This document shows positions 12,500 through 46,639 of a stretch of 46,639 nt of DNA, in pieces (position 1 is the first letter of the stretch; each line of letters starts with the position of its first letter). Origin of the DNA: an uncultured Bacilli bacterium (GTDB lineage Bacteria; Bacillota_I; Bacilli_A; RF39; UBA660); the NCBI GenBank assembly GCA_944329365.1, contig CALVIC010000009.1, forward strand, positions 1-46,639, written 5' to 3'. Under the pieces are notes generated by a model. The model saw only the letters and a program-made list of their open reading frames with translations. It had not been told where the DNA came from and ran no database searches. A program made the position numbers and the translations under genes.

Positions 12500-12546
12500 T
12501 AAAAATAAAGAAAAACATTTACACTTTTTAGAAGCGGTGTAAATGT
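12500..12546 (-). terminator. Terminator after mutS
   Basis: A perfect 10-bp stem, ACATTTACAC with GTGTAAATGT (12515-12524 and 12537-12546), is followed on the minus strand by TTTTCTTTATTTTT. Confidence 0.85.
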
Positions 12547-15080
12547 TAGTTTTCTTTAGATAACTTTTTTAATTTATAAAGTATATTCAAAGCGTCCATC
12601 GGGGTCGTTTCGAGAGGGTCGATTTTATCGAGTTCTTCTTCTAATTTGCTTTTCTTTGGAATTAGGGCATCGATTGGCAGGGTTTCTTGGATTTTATTAT
12701 CACGCGATTTTTCTTTACTTTCATACACCTTTAATATTTCGCTTGCCCTATTTATAACTTCGTTTGGAAGTTTTGCAAGTTTAGCTACGTGTATACCGTA
12801 ACTTTTAGAGGCTGGCCCTTCTTTTATTTTGTGCAAGAAGGTTATTTTTCCATCTTCTTCGTAGGCACTTACATGAATGTTCTTGAGGTGTTTTAGGGTT
12901 TCGTTTAAATCTGTTAATTCGTGGTAGTGAGTTGAGAAGAAGGTTTTGGCTTTGATGTTTTGGTGAATGTACTCAATAATCGCTTGAGCTAGAGCCATGC
13001 CATCAAAGGTCGAGGTTCCTCTTCCTAGTTCATCAAAGAGGATTAAGCTTTTATCAGTAGCACTTGTTATGGCGTTTCCAGCTTCCATCATTTCGACCAT
13101 GAAAGTCGATTCGCCACTGACTAGGTCGTCTGAGGCGCCAATTCTCGTATAAATTGCATCAAAGATTGGAAGCCTTGCTGTGCTAGCAGGAACAAAACAG
13201 CCTATTTGCATCATAATGGCAATAATGGCCATTTGCCTCATATAGGTCGATTTACCTGCCATATTCGGTCCGGTTATAAGTAAAATATTAGTTTTTTTAT
13301 CCATGATTATGTCATTCGTGACAAATTCCGCGTTTATTACTTTTTCGACGACTGGATGACGAGATTCTTTTATACAAATTTCATCTTCAGTGATTTGCGG
13401 TCTTACGTAATTGTTTTCTTCACTGATTGTTGCAAATGAAGTTAAAACATCTACTTCACTGATGATTTTAGCTATTGTTTGAAGTCTTGGAATGTATTTT
13501 TTTACTTCGTCTCTAATTTCTGTGAATAAATTATATTCGATTTCAACTATTTTCTCTTCGGCGTTTAAAATTAGAGCTTCTTTTTCTTTTAGAATTGGAC
13601 TTATGTATCTTTCACAGTTGGCTAGGGTTTGTCTTCTTTGGTATCCCCAATCTTCTTTTACTTCTTTGACGTTACCTTTACTGATTTCAATATAATAACC
13701 AAAGACACGGTTATAGCCAACTTTTAGATTTTTAATGCCGGTTCTTTCTCTTTCTTCGGTTTCAAATTTGGCGACAAAGTCTTTACCACCCTTTCTGAGC
13801 ACTTTTAATTCATCAAGTTCGACGTTATAACCTTCTTTAATTAGATATCCTTCCTTGGTCGATACTGGAGGATTTTCATAGATACTTTTTTCGAGTAAGT
13901 TATACAATTCATCTAGGGTTTCTAAGTTTTTAGGATAGTTTATCTTTGTTAAGATTTCTTTGATTTTTGGTAATATTTTGATAGAGTTTTTTAATTGTAA
14001 GAGATCTTTACCATTAGCTGAGCCAAAGGCAATTTTACCGCTTAATCTTTCAAGATCATAGACATCTGTCAAGTATTTTTCTAGGTCACTTTTTAAAATG
14101 AATTCGTTAATTAGAGTTGCGACGGTGTTTAATCTGTACTCGATTTCGTTTTTATCAACTAGTGGGTTTAACAGGTATGATTTTAAAAGTCTGGCACCCA
14201 TGGCAGTTTTGGTTTTATCTAAAAGCCACAATAATGAATACTGTCTTTCTTTTAATCTTAAGGTTTCAGTTAGTTCGAGGTTTCTTTTGGTGTGAACATC
14301 CATACGCATATGATCTTTGGTTTGCCTTATAATAACTTTTTGAAAATGTGAAAGGTCTCTTTTTTGATTATCGGCAATATAAGCTATTAGATGTTTTACG
14401 GAAATAATATATCTTTCATCGGTCAAATCTTTATATACTGATTCGCACTTGTCCGTTGTAATGTCGGTTATAGTTGCCGTTAAGTGGAACTGATTTTTTA
14501 AAATTTCGTATATGTTTTTATTAGTGTTTTCGGTCATAATTACTTCTTTGATACCAAGGTTTATAATTTCACTAACAACTTTAGAGGTGTCGTGTTCTAT
14601 CAAAAAGGCATATATTTCTCCGGTTGTAGCATCAGCGTATGAAATGCCGTAACAGTTTTTAAAATCGGTAATACTGGCAATAAAGTTATAATCGGTTTTG
14701 TTTAACATATCGTCATTCATGACAGTTCCCGATGAGACTATTTGAATGATGTCTCTTTTGACTATTCCTTTTGCAGCTTTAGGGTCTTCTAGTTGTTCAC
14801 ATATACCAATTTTATATCCTTTTTCAAGTAATTTATCAATATAACCACTAGCAGCATGATAAGGTATTCCACACATTGGTATGCGTTCTTCTAATCCTGC
14901 TGACTTACCTGTTAAAGTAAGTTCTAGTTCTCTACTTACTTTTTCGGCATCGTCAAAAAACATTTCATAAAAGTCACCTAATCTAAAGAAGATTATCAAA
15001 TCTTCATGAGCGTTTTTTATCTCTAAATACTGTTTCATCATTGGAGTTATTTTGTTCATATCGACACTTTTTCTATCCAT
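12546..15080 (-). CDS. mutS: DNA mismatch repair protein MutS
   Basis: An 844-residue full-length MutS that recognises mismatches and starts methyl-independent repair. Seen: the mismatch-contact Phe-x-Glu in GDFYEMF (35-41), the clamp/lever region, and the ABC-type ATPase with Walker A TGPNMAGKSTYM near 600, the signature STFMVEM and Walker B LILFDELGRGTSTFDG. The C-terminal helix-turn region (GIHVAKLAKLPNEVINRA) is present. AGGAAGTAG precedes the ATG at 15080. No mutL lies beside it in this window, although the pair is adjacent in many Firmicutes; downstream is the TasA-like gene after a terminator. Confidence 0.97.
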   Translation of the reverse strand: MDRKSVDMNKITPMMKQYLEIKNAHEDLIIFFRLGDFYEMFFDDAEKVSRELELTLTGKSAGLEERIPMCGIPYHAASGYIDKLLEKGYKIGICEQLEDPKAAKGIVKRDIIQIVSSGTVMNDDMLNKTDYNFIASITDFKNCYGISYADATTGEIYAFLIEHDTSKVVSEIINLGIKEVIMTENTNKNIYEILKNQFHLTATITDITTDKCESVYKDLTDERYIISVKHLIAYIADNQKRDLSHFQKVIIRQTKDHMRMDVHTKRNLELTETLRLKERQYSLLWLLDKTKTAMGARLLKSYLLNPLVDKNEIEYRLNTVATLINEFILKSDLEKYLTDVYDLERLSGKIAFGSANGKDLLQLKNSIKILPKIKEILTKINYPKNLETLDELYNLLEKSIYENPPVSTKEGYLIKEGYNVELDELKVLRKGGKDFVAKFETEERERTGIKNLKVGYNRVFGYYIEISKGNVKEVKEDWGYQRRQTLANCERYISPILKEKEALILNAEEKIVEIEYNLFTEIRDEVKKYIPRLQTIAKIISEVDVLTSFATISEENNYVRPQITEDEICIKESRHPVVEKVINAEFVTNDIIMDKKTNILLITGPNMAGKSTYMRQMAIIAIMMQIGCFVPASTARLPIFDAIYTRIGASDDLVSGESTFMVEMMEAGNAITSATDKSLILFDELGRGTSTFDGMALAQAIIEYIHQNIKAKTFFSTHYHELTDLNETLKHLKNIHVSAYEEDGKITFLHKIKEGPASKSYGIHVAKLAKLPNEVINRASEILKVYESKEKSRDNKIQETLPIDALIPKKSKLEEELDKIDPLETTPMDALNILYKLKKLSKEN

Positions 15081-38860: not shown

Positions 38861-39643
<783 letters not shown>

Positions 39644-45234: not shown

Positions 45235-46497
45235 TTACATTATTGTAAATGGATCACTTTCTGTTCCGCTTCCACTTAAGAAAAGATTAGAGGTTAGATA
45301 GAGAGTTGGAAAAACGCTGTTAAAGCCTTGGTATACAGAATCATCGTTCAAAAAGCCATTATAGCTACTCACACCAAAGACAAGAGTGGAATTATTGGCG
45401 ATAGGCGAAATTGTCCATAAACCAATAACTGATGATACTATATTGTACATCCAATTTGTGGATAAGCATATTGAAGCATTTGCATTATTTAAATTAGCTG
45501 TTTCACATTGTTCAGCATTTGTATTTGCCCTTAAATACTCGCTAGCCGTTATCATTCCAATACTAGTACTTTGTGATTGTGTACCATTTTCTGATGCTAT
45601 TTGTCCAGCTAAATCATTATTACCAGATGTTACTCCTCCTACACTCCATGTATGGCTTATCATTTTATCTTGATTCGTTTTTATAGTATCTAGATATTCT
45701 CCATTTAAATATGTTTTTATGTCAGATGTTTCCCAGTTATTATTATTCCCGAAATCAAAGACTTTATTTCCACCACTTTCATTTCGCATTATTTTTATTA
45801 ATCCATTAGAATCAATTGATATTATTCTCCACATTTCATTATTAAAGGTTATATAGTTATTTGGATTAGTTCCTTTGTAGGTATATTTTCCTTCTTCATA
45901 TTCATCTTTATATAATCCATCACCTTCTGTAACTGCTAAAGATTTTAAATCTTCAGAAGTCATCGTTGGTACTGGCTCTACATATCCATTTGGTGCCTGA
46001 CTATAATCCAATGTCACTGTAAAATCTGCTGTTAAATTATCTGGTTGCTTTGTTACATCATTATATTTTACTATTACTGTTAGTAGTGCTGTATTACCTG
46101 CTTTTAATAATGTTCCTTCTCTTATTCCTGTCACTTCAAATCCTATGGCTGGATTTGTACTTTCTGGTACAGTTATTTTATCTAATTTTGCATCAATATC
46201 TCCCTGATTTTCTACAGTTATATCATATTGCATACTATCTCCGGGACTTACCAAGTTTGTTTTAAATGTTGCAGTTGTTTCTGTATGACTTGGTGCCTCG
46301 GCATCTGTGGCGTCTCCTGATAATGTTTTACTTTGAATATCTGTTATTAATACTTTCCAGTCACTTGTTATATTACTTGTTCCATTTATTGTAAGTTGCG
46401 TTCTAAATGCCGCATACCCTGCGGCCATTACTAAAAGTATTGAACATAGACCTAAGATTATATAGTTTCTTTGTCTTGTATTAAATCTTTGTCTCAT
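45235..46497 (-). CDS. Large TasA-like surface protein with C-terminal lectin-like domain
   Basis: A 420-residue exported protein. The SipW-type signal (~12-31, YIILGLCSILLVMAAGYAAF) and first beta-sandwich (to ~165; LVSPGDSMQYDITVENQGDIDAKLDKI) are homologous to the 169-residue TasA-like protein at 12 kb. Residues ~185-420 form a second domain (NNEMWRIISIDSNGLIKIMRNES, SDIKTYLNGEYL, and a final SGSGTESDPFTIM) of a type common in surface proteins of gut Bacilli; it resembles DUF6273/lectin-like folds. It is probably a matrix fibre subunit or adhesin carrying a ligand-binding head (inference). AAAGGAGTG precedes the ATG. The promoter has an unusual G-tract spacer. Confidence 0.75.
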   Translation of the reverse strand: MRQRFNTRQRNYIILGLCSILLVMAAGYAAFRTQLTINGTSNITSDWKVLITDIQSKTLSGDATDAEAPSHTETTATFKTNLVSPGDSMQYDITVENQGDIDAKLDKITVPESTNPAIGFEVTGIREGTLLKAGNTALLTVIVKYNDVTKQPDNLTADFTVTLDYSQAPNGYVEPVPTMTSEDLKSLAVTEGDGLYKDEYEEGKYTYKGTNPNNYITFNNEMWRIISIDSNGLIKIMRNESGGNKVFDFGNNNNWETSDIKTYLNGEYLDTIKTNQDKMISHTWSVGGVTSGNNDLAGQIASENGTQSQSTSIGMITASEYLRANTNAEQCETANLNNANASICLSTNWMYNIVSSVIGLWTISPIANNSTLVFGVSSYNGFLNDDSVYQGFNSVFPTLYLTSNLFLSGSGTESDPFTIM

Positions 46498-46520
46498 ATA
46501 AAAACACTCCTTTTCTATCG

Positions 46521-46535
46521 TACAATTCCATTGTA
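46521..46535. promoter_or_regulatory. Palindrome overlapping the -10 box
   Basis: TACAAT-TCC-ATTGTA is a perfect 6-bp inverted repeat with a 3-bp centre. One arm is the -10 box of the TasA-like promoter, so it could be an operator; the arm identity with the -10 makes chance also possible. Confidence 0.35.
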
Positions 46536-46558
46536 CCCCCCCTCCCCATAAAAATCAA
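46530..46558 (-). promoter_or_regulatory. Promoter with poly-G spacer, likely phase-variable
   Basis: Minus strand TTGATT (46553-46558), a 17-nt spacer TTTAT-GGGG-A-GGGGGGG (46536-46552), then TACAAT (46530-46535). A change in G number would alter the -35/-10 distance from the optimal 17. It drives the large TasA-like gene starting at 46497. Confidence 0.65.
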
Positions 46559-46600
46559 GGGGGGGATGTTATCATTTTTTTAGACAATGTAAAGAGGGGG

Positions 46601-46631
46601 TCAAGTACCCATACTTGGATAGTGGTATAAT
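46601..46631 (+). promoter_or_regulatory. Outward extended -10 promoter with inverted repeat
   Basis: TGGTATAAT (46623-46631) is an extended -10 element firing out of the window to the right; no proper -35 is present. Just upstream lies TCAAGTA-CCCA-TACTTGG (46601-46618), a near-perfect inverted repeat that could be an activator or repressor site. The gene it serves is not in the window. Confidence 0.4.
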
Positions 46632-46639
46632 AACTGAAA

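Follow-up and report, generated by a model that had tools for sequence, protein, structure and literature searches.

The porA promoter of Neisseria meningitidis carries a poly-G tract between its -35 and -10 boxes, and the gain or loss of a single G alters transcription of the surface protein (PMC3639595, PMC3899988). In Treponema pallidum the tp0126 tract is likewise located between the -35 and -10 boxes, with an optimum of 17 nt, and tprL has 7-11 Gs (PMC7864442). Here we describe a promoter of comparable organization from the RF39 lineage, a group of animal and human gut bacteria that is known mainly from metagenomes and whose surface biology is almost blank. The promoter was encountered in a stretch of 46,639 nt that was analyzed as a whole (hereafter the window), and was followed through the host genome, its genus and its family. 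We assign a probability of roughly 0.77 to the reading that it belongs to a lineage-wide, porA-like set of phase-variable surface-gene promoters driven by slippage.

Organization of the promoter and its copies within the host genome

The promoter occupies the extreme end of contig C9, part of a draft genome of 1.30 Mb, and on the minus strand it reads, 5' to 3', CATCCCCCCC, TTGATT, TTTATGGGGAGGGGGGG, TACAAT, GGAATTGTAC, GATAGAAAAGGAGTG, TTTTTAT and ATG; all of its features given below are on this strand. The -35 box TTGATT (46553..46558) is near-constant in paralogous and orthologous copies, and the -10 box TACAAT (46530..46535) is identical in the copies from the genus. The 17-nt spacer TTTATGGGGAGGGGGGG (46536..46552) that separates them contains the variable G tract, which in this copy comprises G7 (46536-46542), an A (46543) and G4 (46544-46547). 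This is the arrangement upstream of a large gene that the first-pass annotation had reported, and a consensus promoter scan also calls the same promoter. A ribosome binding site, AGGAG, is present at 46507..46511, and a perfect 7-3-7 palindrome, GTACAATGGAATTGTAC (46520..46536), covers the -10 box and the start region and is a candidate operator. The window contains just two runs of at least seven G or C residues, namely the spacer G7 and a C7 run (46559..46565) that adjoins the -35 box and is complementary to the G7. The C7 run is particular to the window copy, the same position being occupied by CCCAAGC or CCCCCTNAAAAGC in other copies. As 0.87 G7 runs are expected by chance per window and 24 of 100 shuffled sequences have at least two, the count is in itself unremarkable and it is the position that stands out. 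Hence, the run was rejected as a statistical surprise by itself, and its initial description as striking does not hold by count.

A palindrome over the -10 box, GTACAATnnAATTGTAC, is also found directly upstream of Phd/YefM antitoxin genes (Pfam: PF02604) in unrelated bacteria (L100, L104, L107, L110). Given this location, a Phd/YefM-like repressor might bind the surface promoters. On the other side of the promoter, the segment at 46566..46639 is a repeat that is common to two further contig ends with the same promoter and resembles the end of an insertion element. The three promoter copies that share it are that of the window and others among the end of G000:C15 and the starts of C5 and C29, and a related end (GGGACTTTGTCAATATTTTGGACACATTTTAGAGGGGG) comes after a flank orthologous to another promoter, that on C29. 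These contig-end repeats look like the ends of insertion elements situated just upstream of the promoters; a search for plasmid relatives of the repeat found none.

In the host genome the pattern CTTGATTTTN{6,22}GTACAAT recovered six matches, and none in the control. The spacers from TTGATT to TACAAT in these copies measure 18 (G3AG7TG), 18 (G5TG5TG), 17 (G3AG6TG), 17 (the window copy, G4AG7), 18 (G11TG) and 15 nt (AG7TG). The palindrome GTACAATGGAATTGTAC is found in this genome only at these six copies, and five of the seven tracts of G7 or longer in the entire genome fall within four copies of the promoter. Four contigs (C8, C23, C6 and C17) carry additional close paralogs of the window gene, which have an ordinary upstream region devoid of the tract, suggesting that the tract is an option rather than a requirement for genes of this type. 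A further paralog (G000:C12:17344-17544) appears to be dead, its promoter (TTGACA..GGGGGTGTGCGATG) having decayed and its reading frame containing a TGA.

Surface-type proteins encoded downstream

The gene downstream of the window promoter (45235..46497, minus strand, with the ATG starting from 46497) encodes a 420-residue protein that is of the surface type according to its sequence and profile searches. It has an N-terminal membrane segment, an Ig-like region and a weak match to DUF6273, and its predicted structure has a mean pLDDT of 38, too low to be of use. The first-pass annotation had called the gene TasA-like, a designation that proved weak: none of the TasA or camelysin family models reaches its cut-off against the window protein. 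One paralog shows a weak match to the BsaA family (score 17; cut-off 60), which the window protein lacks. Membership in the TasA/SipW-dependent family was accordingly rejected, with no family model above its curated cut-off. Comparisons of the window protein with six paralogs from its own genome revealed 63-76% identity over the first 175 residues and 15-41% beyond, and such a conserved N-terminus with a variable remainder would be expected for surface proteins under diversifying pressure.

This organization is seen more generally among the genes that follow poly-G promoters in the family. A hydrophobic N-terminus is present in 72 of the 81 proteins encoded behind promoters with a readable downstream gene, as against 7 of the 33 ORFs of the window that served as control. 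The types of proteins include prepilin-type, PARCEL-repeat/DUF285, Ig-like, DUF6273 and possible sortase-anchored versions, and the exceptions, as judged by reading, are some promoters followed by the gene for an ABC-transporter ATPase or by unrelated genes (G178, G282). Taken as a whole, the sequence features suggest that genes controlled by poly-G promoters encode products that are probably exposed on the surface. Elsewhere in the window (38894-39643, plus strand) reading identifies a collagen-like protein with G-x-T repeats, a type known from the spore surfaces of Bacilli.

Variation of the promoter in sister species

Exact matches to the promoter were recovered in three others of the 44 genomes of the genus, sister species that together contain approximately 20 further copies. 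String matches to public records identify one as Candidatus Coprosoma intestinipullorum CHK147-3167 and the other two as MAGs of uncultured Bacilli. Candidatus Coprosoma corresponds to the GTDB genus CAG-822 of the order RF39 (PMC8035907). Across these copies the -10 box is constant, and the -35 box is TTGATT in one class and the canonical TTGACA in another, with a single copy having TTGCTT. The spacer, on the other hand, is highly variable, with the 26 genus copies in which it is readable displaying 19 distinct sequences of 15-23 nt, built of G5-G12, (TG)n, A8G7 or G runs broken by one base. The first-pass annotation had named an invariant G7 as a result that would refute its proposal, and between copies and species the tract was found to vary. 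In a strict ortholog pair, with upstream regions 99.3% identical over 1441 bp, (TG)3G7 is replaced by (TG)4G5, and the total spacing is 20 nt in both. Five copies from a single species (G021) are all exactly G12, for which collapse in the assembly, recent copying or genuine stability may be responsible. Three individual copies also merit description. The diverged copy L192:162-190 (G001:C133) reads TATAATGATATTATA, in which the -10 box has become TATAAT and a corresponding change in the other arm preserves the dyad symmetry. The gene behind a promoter with a 20-nt spacer on G001:C21 (L073) stops early, after 33 codons, and its closest relative has no stop there. At the end of contig G021:C30 an 18-G run lies beside a long A run and is possibly a read artefact. 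Near-identical copies were also sought in viral contigs, with one chance match for the genus pattern, none for its G-run version and four scattered matches for the general pattern; this search was not informative.

Comparison of G000:C5:11935 and C6:28544 with G001:C18 and C52 shows conserved upstream genes that lead into a promoter-plus-surface-gene unit in one of the two species and into unrelated sequence in the other. This presence and absence after conserved upstream genes implies that such units come and go between species, and raises the alternative that recombination, either as promoter inversion or as movement of the promoter-plus-gene cassette, is the main switch and the tract is incidental. 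The near-identical N-termini and variable C-termini of the genes and the frequent ending of contigs at poly-G promoters are in line with such recombination. However, every promoter examined faces its gene, and an orthologous promoter in three species of one genus has G8, G9 and G11, giving spacings of 15, 16 and 17 nt, with no change of cassette; the upstream kilobase of these orthologs is 89-90% identical. Inversion was rejected as a candidate mechanism, as no convincing pair of inverted repeats flanks the promoter in the three copies with both flanks complete, the window copy having only 74 bp upstream. We therefore consider recombination a highly improbable explanation for the switch.

Spacer length across the family

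To survey the wider distribution of such promoters we scanned 386 genomes from 150 genera of the family with the pattern TTGAN{3,20}GGGGGGN{0,3}TAYAAT, using the same pattern backwards as the control. Matches were recovered in 64 of the 386 genomes and 44 of the 150 genera, with a maximum of 31 per genome, as opposed to a single match in each of four genomes for the control. A few single matches located within genes (L202, L205, L209) were counted as chance. In most of the family the -35 box is the canonical TTGACA. The 140 promoters listed have G runs of 6-16 and spacer lengths with peaks at 19 (56 promoters) and 18 nt (35 promoters). Otherwise identical promoters of one genome differ in the number of Gs (7/8, 9/10, 10/11, 11/12 and 13/16), with assembled tract lengths being consensus values that are possibly off by one or two and each species being represented by one genome. 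In the 140 promoters listed, spacers with a longer non-G part tend to have a shorter G run (r = -0.49), and the variance of the total spacer length is 2.35 compared with 4.51 in shuffled pairings, none of 5000 shuffles being as low. This compensation in length between the two parts indicates that the spacing is under selection. Ordinary TTGACA/TATAAT promoters in the loci examined were too few to provide a spacing optimum.

These data also bear on an alternative in which the G run is an element of fixed function, for instance a G box bound by a protein, or a DNA-shape element governing how strong or how specific the promoter is, with its length drifting over evolution and no switching in populations. 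The G run adjoins the -10 box in 126 of the 140 copies and several copies per genome share the same G length, as might be anticipated for such an element. Furthermore, within the genus of the window the run is flanked by a conserved CCCCCT on its upstream side and by the palindrome over the -10 box on the other, which makes binding sites plausible. Against this, TG repeats, A8G7, G4AG7 or G5TG5 take its place in near-identical promoters, which would hardly be tolerable for a sequence-specific site; other genera retain the G run and lack both the palindrome and the C box; and the G counts of close orthologs are one to three apart. A fixed element is thus an unlikely account, although a better one than recombination, and slippage remains our preferred reading.

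Poly-G is a known false signal of two-colour Illumina data, and an origin of the tracts in sequencing or assembly would be consistent with the suspect 18-G run described above and with the location of many copies near contig ends: 25 of 100 lie within 200 bp of an end as against the 2.1 expected. This excess could be caused by repeated sequence or by mixed tract lengths. The tracts, however, are internal, always placed between the -35 and -10 boxes in the same orientation to the gene, and recur in many genomes, including two of the G8/G9/G11 trio with contigs of 0.2-0.9 Mb, leaving an artefact with the lowest probability of all the explanations considered. As RF39 assemblies break at poly-G promoters in this manner, their surface genes are probably under-recovered.

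A proposed model for the switching of surface genes

We propose that each promoter consists of sigma-A-type -35 and -10 boxes with a slippage-prone repeat in the spacer, usually a G run abutting the -10 box. Slipped-strand errors during replication would add or remove Gs, and each gain or loss would shift the distance between the boxes, which is about 15-21 nt among the copies, and thereby turn transcription of the downstream surface protein up or down. With the copies changing independently, the cells of one population would come to display differing mixtures of surface proteins. In regard to the phase-variable surface-protein switch postulated by the first-pass annotation, the promoter spacer, the surface-type protein and the variation of tract length between copies and species are borne out, and from these we infer slippage as the cause, its reversibility and its effect on expression.

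Some observations weigh against a slippage switch: rapid slippage should scatter the G12 shared by the five G021 copies, the strict ortholog pair differs in its make-up and has the same total spacing, and mismatch repair is present. The mutS gene of the window (12546..15080, minus strand), which the first-pass annotation had correctly recognized, encodes a protein with Pfam MutS domains I-V, and RF39 genomes retain mutSL (PMC7301438). In Neisseria the loss of mismatch repair raises the rates at mononucleotide tracts by 100- to 1000-fold (PMC3639595). MutS is expected to restrain slippage, slowing the switch rather than making it. The pure run of the window copy, G7, is at the short end and is broken from the G4 by an A, with other copies reaching G9-G16; given this short interrupted run and the presence of MutS, the window copy should switch slowly and be among the more stable ones. 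Its 17-nt spacing equals the textbook optimum, and it is thus probably ON, although spacers across the family are most often 18-19 rather than 17 nt long and the ON length may accordingly differ from the textbook value.

A more speculative extension, to which we give slightly less than even odds, is that the RF39 family runs its surface by means of many independently slipping poly-G promoters, with one cassette per genus being reused across many surface genes. The mode of 18-19 nt would then leave the majority of copies OFF or weakly active at any time, and a copy would be switched on by losing one or two Gs. In the Candidatus Coprosoma genus a Phd/YefM-like repressor might in addition act at the -10 palindrome.

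If the tracts slip, RF39 bacteria, which retain mismatch repair, would possess one of the larger sets of phase-variable genes of the promoter type. This would explain surface diversity at the level of both cells and strains, and could bear on escape from phages and antibodies. Slippage is testable at present with existing gut metagenome reads, without the need for culture.

Relationship to described systems

The mechanism is of an already known kind; novelty appears to lie in the lineage, in how many genera are involved and in the way a single cassette serves many surface genes. A literature search of incomplete coverage recovered no paper joining RF39 and phase variation, and hence offers weak evidence of novelty; the RF39 genome papers searched make no mention of phase variation. 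The first-pass annotation had cited G tracts between the -35 and -10 boxes as a known device, which is documented for Neisseria porA and also for Treponema tp0126; it had additionally named mycoplasma surface genes as a precedent.

Among proteins, the N-terminal membrane segment looks like that of the TasA/SipW-dependent matrix proteins, but the window protein has no match to that family. The PARCEL-repeat (DUF285) surface proteins of mycoplasmas and their relatives are of the same type as those behind some of the poly-G promoters, whereas the window protein itself is of a different type. As for the promoters, the likeness to porA lies in the poly-G tract between the -35 and -10 boxes and in the surface-type gene. 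However, porA is a single gene of a Gram-negative pathogen, while in RF39, which are gut-associated Bacilli, a genome can have numerous paralogous promoters and the device extends over 44 genera. Treponema tp0126 and tprL share with RF39 the presence of poly-G in the promoter and the use of the device by several genes. They differ in encoding spirochete outer-membrane proteins and in that length variation was measured in vivo, whereas the RF39 lengths come from assemblies. Moreover, unlike those of Treponema pallidum, the promoters found in any one RF39 genus represent copies of a single cassette.
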